Below, piece after piece: positions 2,106 to 22,100 of a stretch of DNA of 22,306 nt. The translations under genes and the position numbers were made by a program. Origin of the DNA: a virus; IMG/VR virus record IMGVR_UViG_3300043427_000103, positions 1 to 22,306 of that record; one strand, 5' to 3'. The stretch's first letter is position 1; every line of letters starts with the position of its first letter. Under the pieces are notes generated by a model. That model was not told the DNA's origin, searched no databases, and saw only the letters and a list, made by a program, of their open reading frames with translations.

Positions 2106-2129
2106 ACCATCAAGAAATTGGGTAAAAAC

Positions 2130-3527
2130 ATGGCTATTTTCGACATTTTCAAGCGCAATAAAGACCAAAAAAACGAATCCAATACGCTATTTGGGCAATC
2201 TGCGCTAGGTAATAACATCGTTTATCAGGGCGATAATAAGAACCCTAATGTCAATACTCAGATTCTTTATGTAACCACAGGCGCAACCAATAACGCGGGT
2301 CGCCCCGTGGATATGTCATTGCTTACGCGCAATAGCACAATCATGGCTTGCGTTGCGGCAAAAGCCCGCGCCCTATCCCAATTGCCTATTCGCGTGGTTA
2401 GCCAATCGGAAGATGGTACTTATGTTGATGCCATTAAATCGCCGCTAGTTGGCGCACGGGATAAGGCTAAAGCCAAGCAAGTAGCAAACCTTTTGGCGCA
2501 ACCTAACCAATTCCAAAGTACCTATGAATTTTGGTATCAATGGCTTATGTGGTACGAACTTGCGGGCGAAGCATTTACCCTTTGGTGGAGAAAAGACCAA
2601 GAAAGCACAACGGAAACCCCGTTAGAAATGTACTTGCTTGATTCAACTTTGATTGCCGTAACAATCACCCCTGCGCGTTACCCATCGTATCGTTTAAGTA
2701 CGCCCGCTTACGGTTTTAACCGTGATAAGCCGCTGAACTTTAACCAAGTGATGCACATTAAGGAAATGAACTGGCAAGGTTCTGCGGGTTTTAACAAAGG
2801 CATTTTGGCGGCAGAACTGGTTTCGCTAGACCAAGATATTGACCTTTACGCAAACTACATCATGCAAAACGGCGCAAAGCCAAGCGGAATGTTTACTACC
2901 GAAAGTGTTATTCCTGATGGCAAATATAAGGAAATTGCCGCCCGCTTGAAAGAAGCATGGTCGGCAATGGTTTCTAGCCGCCCAAGCGACCCAAGCAAGG
3001 CGGGTCAGGGTATGTTGCTAGACCAAGGCATGAAGTACACCCCGTTAGATATGTTGACCCTACAGGATACCGATGCGGCTAAGTTAAAAGAACAAACCAT
3101 GAAACGGATTTGCGGTTTGTTTGGCGTTCCCGCGGCAATGATTGGCATCGGGGATTCTAAGTACAACAATACCCAAACAATGATGGATGAATTCTATAAA
3201 TCCACAATGTACCCAACTTTAATTAACATTCAGCAAAAATTAAAACAACATTTGTTTGTTGGCTACCCTAATTTGTGCATTGAGTTTGATACGCGCAATT
3301 TCTTAAAAGGTGCGCCATTAGACCAAATGAATTTTGCTACCGCGGGCGTTACAAACGGGATTATGACCCCTAACGAAGCGCGTGAATACTTGGGTATGCC
3401 CAATATTGATGGGGCAGATGAATTGATTGATAAGGGCGGGAAAGATAAACCGATTGTCGGAACATCCCCCCAAGATACGGGCGGGGGCGGTGGAAACCAA
3501 ACCCGCAAAATGAATATCGGCAAGTGA
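2130..3527 (+). CDS. Portal protein, HK97 family
   Basis: The portal forms the twelve-subunit ring at one capsid vertex through which DNA enters and to which the terminase and connectors bind. The product (465 residues from the ATG at 2130) starts MAIFDIFKRN, typical of HK97-family portals. Near residues 300-345 it carries the family's stem/crown signature: LLDQGMKYTPL, then DAAKLKEQTMKRICGLFGVP followed by AAMIG. The C-terminal tail is glycine-rich (residues about 445-456), with a poly-Gly run before a basic end. An in-frame TTG at 2118 would add four residues. I prefer ATG because no strong Shine-Dalgarno supports either and the ATG form matches the family. It follows TerL by 24 bp and precedes the protease, the standard head-gene order. 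Confidence 0.94.
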   Translation: MAIFDIFKRNKDQKNESNTLFGQSALGNNIVYQGDNKNPNVNTQILYVTTGATNNAGRPVDMSLLTRNSTIMACVAAKARALSQLPIRVVSQSEDGTYVDAIKSPLVGARDKAKAKQVANLLAQPNQFQSTYEFWYQWLMWYELAGEAFTLWWRKDQESTTETPLEMYLLDSTLIAVTITPARYPSYRLSTPAYGFNRDKPLNFNQVMHIKEMNWQGSAGFNKGILAAELVSLDQDIDLYANYIMQNGAKPSGMFTTESVIPDGKYKEIAARLKEAWSAMVSSRPSDPSKAGQGMLLDQGMKYTPLDMLTLQDTDAAKLKEQTMKRICGLFGVPAAMIGIGDSKYNNTQTMMDEFYKSTMYPTLINIQQKLKQHLFVGYPNLCIEFDTRNFLKGAPLDQMNFATAGVTNGIMTPNEAREYLGMPNIDGADELIDKGGKDKPIVGTSPQDTGGGGGNQTRKMNIGK

Positions 3528-3534
3528 AAATAAA

Positions 3535-3747
3535 TTGTCCACTATTTTTAAATTAGTGATAGCATCCTTGGCAACATATAAGCCAAATACAGAACCGCCC
3601 CCTAAAAGAGGGCGACCCCCTAAAACAATATATGACATCGACCGAACTAAAATCGATGAGGTAATCCATGACCGTAAAAAACCTGATGATGATTTGCGAA
3701 GCCAAATTAGTTTTGGAAAAGCAAGGCGCAATGACAGGAAAAATTGA
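3535..3747 (+). CDS. Small basic ORF between portal and protease, unknown function
   Basis: This 70-codon reading frame fills the 140-bp space between the portal stop and the protease start, then overlaps the protease by 80 bp in another frame. Its start would be TTG at 3535 with no clear ribosome binding site. The product is charged and proline-rich, with a PPPKRGRPPK segment (residues about 21-30) that resembles an AT-hook DNA-binding motif, followed by an Asp/Lys-rich region. I do not recognise a family. The ORF may be a real small gene, or chance coding around the leader of the protease gene. A Shine-Dalgarno for the protease (GAGGT, 3658-3662) lies inside it. Confidence 0.4.
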   Translation: MSTIFKLVIASLATYKPNTEPPPKRGRPPKTIYDIDRTKIDEVIHDRKKPDDDLRSQISFGKARRNDRKN

Positions 3748-4450
3748 AGCAACCGTAACTACTTGGGGTGCGCGTGAAGGCGCAGACGGTAGGCGGTTTA
3801 ATTATCAACCCGAAGGTTTTATGAAATGGGCAGAAGAATTTTCTGCATCAGGTCGCCCACTACCGATGTTTGTAAATCACGATGCGGATGCAATCCCCGT
3901 TGGTCAATGGGATGCGTTTGAGTTTGACGATACAGGAATGAAAGCCGAAGGGCGTTTGTTTGTCAATACTACGATGGGTTCTGACCTTTACAAAGTAATG
4001 CAAGAAAGCCCCGCTATGTTTGGCGGCGTTTCCGTTGGCGCATACGCCGAAGAATATTGCATGGTCGATGCTGAAGGCAACCCTTGCGAAGATTACGAAG
4101 AAGGTTATTTCCAAATCACTAAAGGCGGTTTGCGCGAAGTATCCGTAGTGATGTATCCCAACAACCCACAAGCAGAAGTTAGCAGATTGGAATATTTCCG
4201 ACCTGATGGTTCTGCGGATTTAAAAGTTTTAGAACAAGCCTTGCGTGAAGTTGGGCTATCTAAAAAGGATGCGGTAGCCGCCGCATCTACGTTCAAAAAA
4301 GTGTTAGAACTGCGCGATGTAGTTACAACGCCTATTGAAATTGCGCCTATTCTGAGTGAATCAGATGCGGAGGCTACCGAAGCGGAAATTCTCGCGGCTT
4401 TAGAAACGCGTGAACTTCTTAAAATTCTTGATACAAAAATTAAAGGTTAA
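3668..4450 (+). CDS. Prohead maturation protease, HK97 (S78) type
   Basis: This 260-residue serine protease is packaged in the prohead, removes the capsid delta/scaffold domain, then digests itself so that DNA can be packaged. The family catalytic His sits in PMFVNHDADAIPVGQW (H71) and the catalytic Ser in LREVSVVMYPNNPQAEV (S159). A GGVSVGAY strand at residues 119-126 is also typical. The C-terminal segment EQALREVGLSKKDAVAAAS matches the helix often found at the end of these proteases. The start at 3668 has a good GAGGT Shine-Dalgarno five bases upstream. An in-frame ATG at 3731 (residue 22) lies closer to the conserved beta strands and has AAGG upstream, so it is a credible alternative. 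The gene sits between portal and capsid, as expected. Confidence 0.9.
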   Translation: MTVKNLMMICEAKLVLEKQGAMTGKIEATVTTWGAREGADGRRFNYQPEGFMKWAEEFSASGRPLPMFVNHDADAIPVGQWDAFEFDDTGMKAEGRLFVNTTMGSDLYKVMQESPAMFGGVSVGAYAEEYCMVDAEGNPCEDYEEGYFQITKGGLREVSVVMYPNNPQAEVSRLEYFRPDGSADLKVLEQALREVGLSKKDAVAAASTFKKVLELRDVVTTPIEIAPILSESDAEATEAEILAALETRELLKILDTKIKG

Positions 4451-4453
4451 ATC

Positions 4454-5800
4454 ATGTCACAAGCAATCATTGAAAAATTGGATGCTATCGAAGCCAAGCA
4501 AAGCGAAAGCATTGCCGCCGTTGAAGCAAAAATTCCCGCCGCCGTTGAAGCAATCAAACTGGAAATGCAAGAAACCATTTCTGCTTTGGAAGCCAAAGTA
4601 GCATCTATTCAAGCCCCTGCAATCGTCAAGCCCGCTACATCCGTGCGCGGCGATGTAAACCGTTCTGTTAAAGAACAATTGGTTTCTTTCTACAAAAGCA
4701 ATGCCCGCGTAGAAAAAGAACTGCAAATTTTTGCAGACGAAAGCCAACGCGATGCGTATATGCGCGAGGCATCAGCATTGACAGGCTCAGGCAACAACCA
4801 AGGTGGTCGCACCGCTTATGACCCCGTGTTTGCCGCTTTGCGTTTGGCTAACCCCATGCGCGGTTTGTCACGCACCGTAGCAACCGATGGTTCTTCATAT
4901 CAATTTCGTGTCAAAACTGGTAATGCGGGTGCGGCATGGGGCTATGCGATTCAGAACAACGGCGATGCCACAACTGAAAATACAAGCATTTGGCAATTGG
5001 TTCTGCAAGACCTGAATGTTCAATTCCCAATCCGTACTGCGGCTTTGGATGATATTGATGGTTTGGAAGCCAATGTCGTTGACGATATGTTGATGGAGTT
5101 TTCGCAAGCCGAAGCCTTGTCAATGATTCAGAATAACGACCAAGCGGCACAATCAAGCACTAACCCTTACGGCGGCACAAATGGCTTGCGTGGCTTAGAC
5201 CAATACGCGGGTGCTAACGCTACCTATGCGGGTGGTACTTGCTCTACTGCGGCATTTGGAACAAGCGGTACGGGTTCTAATACTGGTTTGCATAGCCTTG
5301 CTACTTATGACCAAATTACCACTAACGCAAACACCGTTGGCGCAAACAACATTTCTTATGTTGACGTAATCAATACTATTTATGCTTTGCCACAACAGTA
5401 TTGGACACCTGACACTAAGTTTATGATTAGCCCAATTTTGTTGAACGCTATTCGCGCATTGCGTGATACAAACGGCGCACCAATCTTTAATCGTAACGAA
5501 GGTTTGTCGGTTGAAGGTATCGTAGGTAATTTGTTGGGCTTTGATGTTGTCGTTAACAAGTATTGCGATAACCCATCACAAGCAACTACTGGTTCTGCGG
5601 GTACAACTTCTTTGTATCCAATGTTCTTTGGTGATTTCACACGCGGTCACACAATCATTGACAGATTGAACATGATTATGCGCCGCTACGACCAAACCGC
5701 GCCGGGCTTTATCACATTCTTTGGTGAAAAGCGTTTGGCTACATCGGTTCGTGACCCTAACGCGTTGATTCGTTATCGTTCAACTGGTACTGCTACTTAA
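4454..5800 (+). CDS. Major capsid protein with N-terminal delta (scaffold) domain, HK97 fold
   Basis: The 448-residue protein builds the icosahedral shell. Residues 1 to about 55 form a Glu/Ala/Ile-rich predicted coiled coil (MSQAIIEKLDAIEAKQSES and following). This is the delta domain that serves as internal scaffold and is normally cut off by the neighbouring protease. From about residue 104 (REASALTGSGNNQGG) the sequence matches a phage HK97-fold capsid protein: the DPVFAALRLANPMRGLSR region, an SIWQL strand, NVVDDMLMEFSQAEALSMI helix, TNGLRGLD, and the C-terminal GFITFFGEKRLATSVRDP. An AAAGG Shine-Dalgarno lies seven bases before the ATG. It is followed directly by an intrinsic terminator, and then by a shorter paralog at 5859. 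The precise cleavage site cannot be read from sequence alone. Confidence 0.94.
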   Translation: MSQAIIEKLDAIEAKQSESIAAVEAKIPAAVEAIKLEMQETISALEAKVASIQAPAIVKPATSVRGDVNRSVKEQLVSFYKSNARVEKELQIFADESQRDAYMREASALTGSGNNQGGRTAYDPVFAALRLANPMRGLSRTVATDGSSYQFRVKTGNAGAAWGYAIQNNGDATTENTSIWQLVLQDLNVQFPIRTAALDDIDGLEANVVDDMLMEFSQAEALSMIQNNDQAAQSSTNPYGGTNGLRGLDQYAGANATYAGGTCSTAAFGTSGTGSNTGLHSLATYDQITTNANTVGANNISYVDVINTIYALPQQYWTPDTKFMISPILLNAIRALRDTNGAPIFNRNEGLSVEGIVGNLLGFDVVVNKYCDNPSQATTGSAGTTSLYPMFFGDFTRGHTIIDRLNMIMRRYDQTAPGFITFFGEKRLATSVRDPNALIRYRSTGTAT

Positions 5801-5813
5801 TTGCGTTGCCATT

Positions 5814-5843
5814 AGCGGGGGGCGAAAATCCCCCGCTTTTTTT
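5814..5843 (+). terminator. Rho-independent terminator between the two capsid genes
   Basis: A perfect 8-bp GC-rich inverted repeat, AGCGGGGG (5814-5821) and CCCCCGCT (5830-5837), encloses an 8-base loop and runs into seven T residues (5837-5843). It begins 13 bases after the stop of the major capsid gene and ends 15 bases before the start of the second capsid paralog. I found no other such structure in the window. Since no obvious promoter sits in the remaining 15 bases, it most likely acts as a partial terminator or mRNA 3' stabiliser, which would make the upstream capsid gene more abundant than the genes behind it. Confidence 0.88.
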
Positions 5844-5858
5844 AAACAGGAATTTAAA

Positions 5859-6875
5859 ATGTCTATCACCGAAAAAATCTTGAACGGAATCAAACAAGCC
5901 ATCACCGAAGGCGGCAAAGTAAACATCGACTTGCGCGAAGCAAGCGCAATTACTGGTTCGGGTTCGGGTGTCGGTGGTAATGTTGTTTTTGATGATGCGT
6001 TTGCGGCTTTGCGTCAAGCAAACCCTTTGCGCCAAGGCTCACGCCAAATTACAGTTACGGGTTCTGATGCCCAATTCGTTGCCAAAACTGGTAACGCCGC
6101 AAATTCTACAAACCCTTGGGGTTACACATTTACGCCAAATAGCGGTTCGCCTAATGTGAATACTTCTATTTGGCAATTGCCCGTGCGCGTATTGGTTGCA
6201 CAATTGCCAATCAGAACGGCGGTGCTAAGTGATGTTAATGGACTTGATGCAACGCTTGTTGAAGATTTGGCACTTGAGTTTGCACAACTTGAAGGTCAAT
6301 CAATGGTGCTTAATAGCGACCAAGCGGGTAGCGGCACTACATCAACTGGTGCTACTAATGGCTTGCGCGGTTTGGATATGTACGCTAGTGGTGCTACTAG
6401 TGCTTTCGGTTCTAGTGGTACGGCTATTACAAATGGCATACATACTATCGCTACGGTTAGTAATGGCGGCACTACGGTAACTTACAACAAAGTTGTAAAC
6501 ATGGCTAACGCGTTGCCCCCGCAATATTGGTCGCTAGATTCAACTGCATGGCACATTAGCCCCGCAATGATTCAAACATTGCGCCAGTTAAAAGATACCG
6601 CGGGCTTGCCTTTGTTCTTGGAACTAGGCGAAAAAGATGGTTGCGCAATTGGTCACATTTTTGGTTGGCCCGTTATTCCTAACGCATACCTTTCTACAGA
6701 TTTCCCAATCTACTTGGCAAACTGGAATCGCTTTTTGACAATCGGTGATACCGAACAAATGAGCATCCAAATGTTTGAACAAACACAGGCGGGTTTTGTG
6801 ACGATGTACGCAGAAAAAAGAATGGTAAGCACCGTACGCGACCCGTTCGCGGGCGTTCGTATGTCTGCCGCCTAA
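5859..6875 (+). CDS. Second HK97-fold capsid paralog lacking the delta domain
   Basis: The 338-residue product is a clear paralog of the capsid protein encoded at 4454-5800. Shared landmarks in the same order include REASA(L/I)TGSG, FAALR.ANP.R, KTGNA, NTSIWQL, PIRTA, NGLRGLD.YA, the ISP strand and GF.T..(G/A)EKR...(S/T)VRDP. By eye roughly half of aligned positions are identical in the first 150 residues of the shared part. It lacks the roughly 75-residue coiled-coil N-terminus: REASA begins at residue 26 here and at 104 in the first copy. It therefore looks like a capsid protein born near its mature end. AGGA lies seven bases before the ATG, but an intrinsic terminator sits just upstream. 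Possible roles are a minor shell subunit, a vertex protein, or a dispensable duplicate. The choice between these is inference. Confidence 0.85.
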   Translation: MSITEKILNGIKQAITEGGKVNIDLREASAITGSGSGVGGNVVFDDAFAALRQANPLRQGSRQITVTGSDAQFVAKTGNAANSTNPWGYTFTPNSGSPNVNTSIWQLPVRVLVAQLPIRTAVLSDVNGLDATLVEDLALEFAQLEGQSMVLNSDQAGSGTTSTGATNGLRGLDMYASGATSAFGSSGTAITNGIHTIATVSNGGTTVTYNKVVNMANALPPQYWSLDSTAWHISPAMIQTLRQLKDTAGLPLFLELGEKDGCAIGHIFGWPVIPNAYLSTDFPIYLANWNRFLTIGDTEQMSIQMFEQTQAGFVTMYAEKRMVSTVRDPFAGVRMSAA

Positions 6876-19155: not shown

Positions 19156-22100
19156 ATGGCTATTTCTAAAGTTGTTGTAGTTGACGGTAACAACCTTATT
19201 GTTCGCGTTGACAGGGGCGTTGCGGGTCGCGGCGTAACGGATGTTGAACCCGTTGTTATAGATGGTTCGTTGTACCTTATTTTTACTTTTTCTGATGGCA
19301 CTACCGACACGGTTGGCCCAATCAGCACAATTCAATATGTTGGAACATCGCCAATTGTTGTAAACGGTTCAACAATCAGTTTAACTACCGTTCCCGTTAA
19401 CTTAGGCGGTACGGGACAAGTTACCGCCAACGCGGGTTTTAACGCCCTTGCGCCTACGCAAACAGGCAATACAGGCAAGTACCTTAAAACTGATGGCACT
19501 AATTCCGCTTGGGATTTGCTAGACATTTCTACCGCCGATATTACGGGTACATTGCCCATCGTCAACGGCGGTACGGGGCAAACTACTGCTAACGCAAGTT
19601 TTAATGCGCTTGCCCCTAGCCAAACAACTAATACGGGAAAATATCTTAAAACCGATGGAACAAATACATCTTGGGATTTACTAGATATTTCTACCGCAGA
19701 TATTACTGGCGTATTGCCCCTTGCCAATGGTGGTACTGCATCATCTACTGCAAGCGGTGCGCGTACTAACTTAGGTTTAGGCACTATTGCTACACAAGAT
19801 GCAAGTAGCGTTGCTATCACGGGCGGTAGCATTACGGGGATTACTGACCTTGCCGTAGCCGATGGCGGTACTGGTGCTAGTAATGCCGCTGATGCACGAA
19901 CTAATTTGGGTTTAGGTACGATTTCTACACAAAACGCATCAAGCGTTTCTATTACTGGCGGCACTATTACAGGAATCACCGACCTTGCCGTTGCTGATGG
20001 CGGTACTGGTTCAAGCACCGCGGCGGGTGCAATGGTTAATCTATTGCCATCGTACACAGGCAACGCAAACAAACGCCTTGGTTTAGATGGCACGGCTACG
20101 GGTTTGGAATGGGTAACGGATGGTGGTGGTACGGTTACATCGGTTGATGTATCGGGCGGCACTACGGGTTTGTCCTTTAGCGGTGGGCCAGTTACCACAA
20201 GCGGCACAATCACACTAAGCGGCACATTAGATTTAGACAACGGCGGTACAGGCGCAACAACCGCGGCGGGCGCAAGAACTAACCTTAACGCCGCTGACCA
20301 AGCCTTAACGCTGACCGCGGGAACTGGTTTGTCGGGCGGCGGCGACCTTACGGCTAATCGTAGTTTCAGCATCACAAATACGGGCGTTACCGCGGCGGCT
20401 TATGGTGCGGCATCTAAAACGCTAACGGCAACGGTTAATGCACAAGGTCAACTAACTGTTTTAGCCGATACGCCTATTGCTATTACCAATACCCAAATTT
20501 CGGGGCTTGGTACTATGTCAACGCAAAACGCTAATGCGGTTGCGATAACGGGCGGCACAATTACTGGCATTACAGATTTGGCGGTTGCTGATGGCGGCAC
20601 GGGCGCAAGCGATGCGGCAGGGGCAAGAACAAACCTTAACGCGGCTAACCAAGCAACAACCATTACCGCGGGTACGGGGCTTTCGGGCGGCGGTGATTTA
20701 TCTGCTAACCGCACAATCGACATTGCCAATACAACGGTAACGGCGGGTGCATTTGGTTCTGCATCTAACACCCTTACGGCTACAGTAAATGCACAAGGTC
20801 AGTTAACCGCATTGGCGGCAACCCCAATTGCAATTGCAAATACTCAAATATCGGGTTTGGGTACGATGTCAACGCAAAATTCCAATGCCGTAACTATTAC
20901 GGGTGGAAGCATCACAGGCATTACAGACCTAGCCATTGCTGATGGCGGTACAGGCGCATCTAACGCCCCTGATGCGCGTTCTAATCTTGGCTTGGGTAGT
21001 GCGGCAGTATTGAACGCGGGCGTTGCTTTAGGCGTTGCTACGCTAGATGCGGGCGGTACTGTACCTTTGTCGCAAATCCCTGCAAGTATTCAGGGCGGCG
21101 TAAGTTACCAAGGCGCATGGAACGCATCAACCAATACGCCTACGCTTGTATCTAGCGTTGGTAGCAAAGGTTATTATTATGTTGTTTCCGTTGCGGGCAA
21201 TACAAACCTTAACGGTGTAACCGATTGGTTGGTAGGCGATTGGGCAATCTACAACGGTACGGCATGGGAAAAGATTGATAACACCGACCAAGTGGCAAGC
21301 GTTAACGGCTACACGGGCGTTGTTGTTTTGTCTAACACCGATGTTGGCGCACCGCCTACAAGCCTAACAATCAGCGCGGGAACGGGTTTAAGTGGTGGTG
21401 GTAGCCTAGCCGCCAACCGCACCCTTTCAATCGCTAATACAACCGTTACCGCCGCGCCTTATGGAACTGCAAGCGCAGTACCTACATTTACAGTAAATGG
21501 TCAGGGTCAACTAACCGCGGCATCTGATGTAACGATTGCTATTGCCAATACGCAAGTATCAGGGCTTGGCACAATGTCAACCCAAAACGCAAATAGCGTT
21601 GCCATCACAGGCGGTAGCATCACGGGCATTACCGATTTGGCTATTGCTGATGGTGGAACGGGTGCAAGCACCGCCCCTGATGCGCGAACAAATCTTGGGC
21701 TTGGCACTATTGCAACGCAAGATGCAAGTTCTGTAGCCATTACAGGCGGTTCAATTAACGGTACAACCATTGGCGCAACTACGCCATCAACAGTAACGGG
21801 AACAACGGTTACGGCAACAACTTTGGTTGTTAACGATAACGCTACGCTTGGTTCATCAAATACTGATACTGTTACTTTTAATGGTCGAGTAAATTCAGAT
21901 TTAGAACCCGCTACTGACAACGCTTATGACTTGGGTAGAACAGGTCACGAGTGGCGTAATTTGTATTTGACGGGTACAGGCAACATTGACAATTTGATTG
22001 CTGATACTGCGGATATAAATGGCGGCACTATTGATGCAACTGCTATCGGTAGCACAACGCCATCATCGGGTGCGTTTACAACTGTTACCGCATCTACCGC

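Follow-up and report, generated by a model that had tools for sequence, protein, structure and literature searches.

The DNA analyzed here, a 22,306-nucleotide fragment of an uncultivated virus (IMG/VR record IMGVR_UViG_3300043427_000103; hereafter the window), carries two consecutive genes for HK97-fold capsid proteins, P1 and P2, of which only P1 has an N-terminal scaffold (delta) domain. We propose that P1 is the major shell protein, whose scaffold domain would direct prohead assembly and which would form the hexamers, and that P2 is an ancient duplicate without this domain, acting as a minor shell subunit, most likely at the pentameric vertices. P2 would then work beside P1 as gp24 works beside gp23 in phage T4. 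A hairpin directly after P1 would end many transcripts and so leave P1 in excess over P2, the connector, and the tail genes, and the S78-family prohead protease would probably trim both proteins after a common glutamate during maturation. Taken as a whole, we regard this explanation as reasonably probable; the vertex location is its least certain element.

Two HK97-fold proteins in one head-tail module

The head-tail module of the window is of an ordinary type, running from the small and large terminase genes through portal, S78 protease, P1, P2, connector, tail terminator, tail tube, and tape measure to the tail fibre (Table 1). Three minus-strand ORFs at 19332-21920 (347, 107, and 137 aa), which lie opposite to the head-tail genes, had no Pfam or PHROGs match, and an Rfam search of the whole window gave no matches. 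A 37.3-kb IMG/VR contig, recovered as L001 and L085, encodes P1 and P2 proteins 100% identical to those of the window.

Table 1. Features of the P1-P2 region of the window (positions in the window; residue ranges refer to the respective protein).
Feature	Position	Strand	Details
Portal protein	2118..3527	+	PF04860 3.4e-63; member of the portal-protease-P1-P2 order
Prohead protease, S78 family	3668..4450	+	PF04586 4.3e-10; phrog_80 1.5e-13
P1, HK97-type major capsid precursor, 448 aa	4454..5800	+	PF05065, TIGR01554, AlphaFold2, invariant E105
P1 domains			residues 1-105, scaffold (delta) with coiled coil; 106-448, predicted mature shell protein
P1 E105/A106 codons, candidate prohead-protease site	4766..4771	+	Glu in 210/210; hydrophobic at -2 residues in 210/210
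P1-P2 gap	5801..5858	+	hairpin (stem-loop 5814-5837), T tract, P2 ribosome-binding region
P2, scaffold-less HK97-fold paralogue, 338 aa	5859..6875	+	PF05065; 40% identity to P1; AlphaFold2
P2 parts			residues 1-27, short propiece (putative); 28-338, shell domain
P2 E27/A28 codons, candidate prohead-protease site	5937..5942	+	Glu in 210/210; hydrophobic two before in 208/210; Ala after in 204/210

Both ORFs lie exactly where the first-pass annotation had placed them, and its description of P1 as a precursor with a coiled-coil delta domain is borne out by profile matches and structure prediction. P1 matched PF05065 (1.5e-30, 107 bits; curated cut-off 24.2) and NCBIfam TIGR01554, major_cap_HK97 (99.7 bits; cut-off 27.5), and its AlphaFold2 model shows a 50-residue helix (residues 2-51) followed by helices 64-81 and 96-108 ahead of the shell domain, so that the scaffold domain of the HK97-type family is present. 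Against the same two profiles, P2 reached 5.3e-21 with 75.7 bits and 72.3 bits, respectively. BLASTP aligned P1 103-440 with P2 25-334 at 40% identity (E 3e-77); the relatedness claimed earlier stands, with the shared part starting one residue before the positions then given (104 in P1 and 26 in P2). In the P2 model the scaffold domain is absent and only a 27-residue piece precedes the shell domain, with a short N-terminal helix (3-17) and one strand (20-24), while the full HK97 fold is kept, including the spine helix and the P-domain strands. The models were built from alignments of 84 and 79 sequences and are of moderate confidence (pLDDT 73 and pTM 0.64 for P1; pLDDT 78 and pTM 0.76 for P2). 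Structure prediction, a check suggested by the first-pass annotation, found both products to be HK97-like: the best Foldseek match in the PDB was the gene transfer agent (GTA) capsid 6tb9 for each (E 2e-16 for P1 and 7e-18 for P2), followed by HK97 and others. P2 is very probably a structural shell protein of the virion.

Family-profile searches of PDB sequences at E<0.001 likewise retrieved the GTA capsid only, and the Rhodobacter GTA capsid (Rcc01687) is the closest solved structure for P1 and P2 by both profile and fold. Identity is, however, only 16-20% over the aligned part, and the solved particle has one shell protein. HK97 itself, with a delta domain fused to gp5 and the protease gp4, resembles the window in that P1 is a precursor, carries its scaffold at the N terminus, and lies behind an S78 protease gene; it differs in that here a second, scaffold-less shell gene follows P1. 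In HK97 a single shell protein supplies hexamers and pentamers alike.

In one relative (L385:4288-5523), a Gly-, Thr-, and Ser-rich stretch of ~70 residues is inserted in frame into P2, following residue ~80. The window P2 model has a long loop at this place, predicted with low confidence between strands 70-76 and 102-108 and probably corresponding to the E-loop; Pfam gives the insertion no name, and P1 of the same locus has no equivalent. It may be a displayed domain, and such an extra domain in P2, with none there in P1, would be compatible with P2 as a specialized surface subunit, decoration-like or portal-proximal, that does not replace P1 at ordinary vertices. Known decoration proteins are small, whereas P2 has the full HK97 fold, and we consider this role improbable.

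The only related isolate found was the Methylophilaceae phage P19250A, which carries both genes in the order seen here; its P19250A_0005 and _0006 are 60% and 57% identical to the window P1 and P2, respectively. In its record the P2 gene (6066-7124) is labelled "hypothetical protein", as is the gene at the protease position (3787-4596). Judging from their relatives, we suggest that these encode the second capsid protein and the prohead protease. The OM43 phage Venkman was rejected as a relative in the head module, as its record shows a podovirus-like arrangement in which the capsid gene is single and the scaffold has a gene of its own.

An ancient pair under purifying selection

Viral contigs matching P1 and P2 number several hundred (the first two scans gave 326 and 509), and one further match is a contig in a Rhodocyclaceae MAG; the phages with the pair are small (~38-kb genome), freshwater, and widespread. 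Both genes were present in 137 loci of the first set, the other 7 stopping at or near the gene, and in 363 loci of the full set, where 21 had one gene (14 P1 only and 7 P2 only); some of these loci share a contig, and the counts that follow are therefore of distinct pairs, 210 in all. In the lone-gene loci the sequence stops close to the gene, and the two with more room show the start of P2, directly in L128 and after an HNH endonuclease gene in L343. The HNH ORF (L343:5363-5689; PF01844, 3.7e-5) also occurs in the P1-P2 gap of L316. All retrieved relatives whose flanks were long enough had the pair, far above chance, and P2 was intact in each of them, so that the absence or breakage of P2 in close relatives, which the first-pass annotation had set against its own reading, was not what we saw.

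P1 and P2 form two separate clades among the 210 distinct pairs, as expected from one old duplication, and the duplication therefore predates the family. Gene conversion between them was rejected, since identity within genomes equalled that between genomes (0.425 in each case; 131-pair set). In the same 131 pairs, the pairwise distances of P1 and P2 covary (r=0.74; 0/500 permutations) and median dN/dS was 0.15 for P1 and 0.135 for P2; both genes are under purifying selection. By root-to-tip distance, P2 diverges ~1.4 times faster than P1. This faster divergence could point to a redundant duplicate heading to loss, or to a protein with no role in the virion, but a dN/dS as low as that of P1, the intact state of P2 in all relatives with room, and a duplication older than the whole family leave that reading scarcely credible. 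Nor is it at all likely that P2 belongs to a different capsid, such as a smaller one assembled in certain conditions or on behalf of a second genetic element. Redirection of capsid size by mobile elements is known, but P2 has no scaffold of its own, shares an operon with P1, and never occurs without P1 given room.

Among HK97-type phages, tandem capsid genes are otherwise rare. PF05065 was surveyed in 399 bacterial genomes from the phylum of the genome that contains L081, with matches in 123. Among the ~150 matches listed, from the strong end and mostly in prophages, the sole intact tandem pair was in the L081 genome itself (G001) and belongs to the same P1-P2 family. In this sample the earlier remark that a single capsid gene is usual for HK97-type phages thus holds. 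Of two further genomes, G290 had C-terminal pieces close to a complete gene, and in G269 the gene was split. We found no two-capsid HK97-type siphophages in the open-access literature.

The P1-P2 gap and the candidate cleavage sites

The gap between P1 and P2 (median 58 nt) contains a conserved terminator-like hairpin, which is absent from the first-pass annotation. In the window it reads AGCGGGGGGCGAAAATCCCCCGCT TTTTTT and has the most G-C pairs of any terminator-like site in the 20 kb scanned. A strict terminator test was passed by 191 of the 210 gaps, with 89 different stems, compared with 1 of 209 sites after P2, none of 210 before P1, and a background of 0.7% of coding windows. Changes on both sides of the stem that keep pairing were seen at five of the seven consensus pairs. 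In most of the remaining 19 gaps the hairpin is strong and the T tract weaker. Two failing gaps have particular causes: in L316 the HNH gene lies between P1 and P2, and in L298 an extra coding stretch separates the hairpin from the usual start of P2. In this second locus (L298:3695-5020) the P2 ORF begins ~100 residues earlier, and its extra N-terminal stretch (…GWKPGEDGYPSAGRIAWALWGGDPGKTWAEK…), which has no Pfam family match, precedes the usual propiece; it may be a fused and possibly cleaved-off domain. L316, L343, and L298 were accordingly dropped as cases of a missing terminator or a missing P2.

From the conserved hairpin we infer transcript attenuation after P1; P1 should therefore be the most abundant product, with lower output from P2 and the genes behind it. 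The hairpin alone does not set the P1:P2 ratio in the shell. Two points weigh against our explanation here: the hairpin would lower every gene downstream and not just P2, and phages with a single capsid gene, such as T7, can also have a terminator behind it. Codon bias was not used as a proxy for expression: the share of C-ending codons is 0.53 in P1 and 0.40 in P2 family-wide, but within the window the two values are close (0.48 and 0.45) and other genes overlap. Overall, it seems highly likely that P2 is minor relative to P1.

In the main rival explanation, P2 would assemble together with P1 into mixed hexamers and pentamers, occupy variable positions rather than a fixed one at the vertices, and tune shell size or stability. 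The 66 near-invariant positions common to P1 and P2 mean that their interfaces may be compatible; another 21 positions are paralogue-specific, and several loop insertions are limited to P1. The two-component Family 2B encapsulin of Streptomyces lydicus is a cellular compartment without portal, scaffold domain, or protease, whereas the window has a portal, a terminase, and a protease, together with tail genes, and does not fit a two-component encapsulin. Mixed shells of two HK97-fold paralogues are nevertheless documented for this encapsulin (PMC12407261), which resembles our proposal in building a shell from two such paralogues and differs in its irregular mixed tiling. Against a mixed shell in the phage, the conserved terminator suggests that P2 is supplied at a constant low level, and a scaffold-less P2 would presumably disturb hexamers in which scaffolds are paired. 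We consider mixed shells unlikely, and prefer P2 as a minor subunit with its own place in the shell.

The two proteins share a further feature at the join of propiece and shell domain, where both have the motif hydrophobic-x-E|small. The N-terminal piece of P2 measures 23-42 residues across the family and ends in an invariant Glu; the residue after Glu is usually Ala, Ser, or Thr, and is Asp in 25 P1 sequences. In P19250A the stretch after Glu is altered alike in both proteins (EQAGLQGSG in P1 and EAAGLQGSG in P2); cleavage at this Glu would leave predicted products of 38.4 kDa for P1 (starting at Q107) and 33.6 kDa for P2 (starting at A35), from full-length chains of 50.0 and 37.4 kDa. Glu is the residue after which the prohead proteases of T4, phiKZ, and SPN3US cleave (PMC5694885). 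Based on this shared context, we infer that P1 and P2 are both cut after the common Glu, with the S78 protease as the presumed processing enzyme of each, although this enzyme belongs with the HK97 (S78) proteases and not with that of T4, which counts against this step. The conserved Glu may instead be part of the mature N-arm. P2 has the appearance of a precursor whose propeptide is short, and the earlier description of a shell protein that needs no cleavage finds no support, given a retained propiece whose invariant Glu stands in the same motif context as that of P1. Homology of the 24-residue P2 N terminus to the start of the P1 scaffold (EKLDAIEA and EKILNGIKQAI, plausible by eye) was dropped after 3210 of 5000 shuffles scored equally.

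Parallels with T4 gp23 and gp24

A dedicated vertex protein is described as setting T4 apart from the other phages studied in depth: gp24* forms eleven vertices and is considered a product of gp23 duplication, and the gp24 propeptide has 10 residues compared with 65 for gp23 (PMC9958956). The T4 gene order is 20 (portal)-67-68-21 (protease)-22-23-segD-24. In both phages two HK97-fold paralogues follow one another in the order portal-protease-major-minor, a terminator-like hairpin lies directly after the major capsid gene, and the minor protein has the shorter propeptide, that of P2 being the putative propiece with its possible Glu cut site. The T4 hairpin, with a T run, lies just after gene 23 and before gene 24 in NC_000866 (L237:7037-7056). 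An endonuclease gene may also stand between the capsid genes, the homing gene segD in T4 and the HNH gene in L343.

The differences are equally plain. The families here are of HK97 type (PF05065 and the S78 protease) and not of T4 type, the scaffold is fused to P1 whereas T4 has a separate gp22, the genome is ~38 kb, and the paralogues are 40% identical compared with about 20% in T4. The profile matches of P1 and P2 were to HK97-type families, with no sequence homology to T4 head proteins. Because the sequence families are distinct, we read P1-P2 as an independent, parallel case; the similarity is one of arrangement, not of ancestry of the pair. In T4, gp24 occupies the pentameric vertices in about 55 copies. 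By analogy a gp24-like role appears to be the best reading of P2, and we think it fairly likely that P2 is vertex-specific. Whether the pair represents a second, independent origin of a dedicated vertex protein, with a split between hexamer and vertex subunits, a ratio set by a terminator, and one protease for both, we judge to be an evenly balanced question.

The analysis suggests a function for P2 in a family of several hundred metagenomic members. If the proposal is true, a second, unrelated lineage would have arrived at T4's solution, which would make it a repeatable route to capsid specialization, and these phages would offer a ~38-kb system for asking why vertices need a protein of their own.
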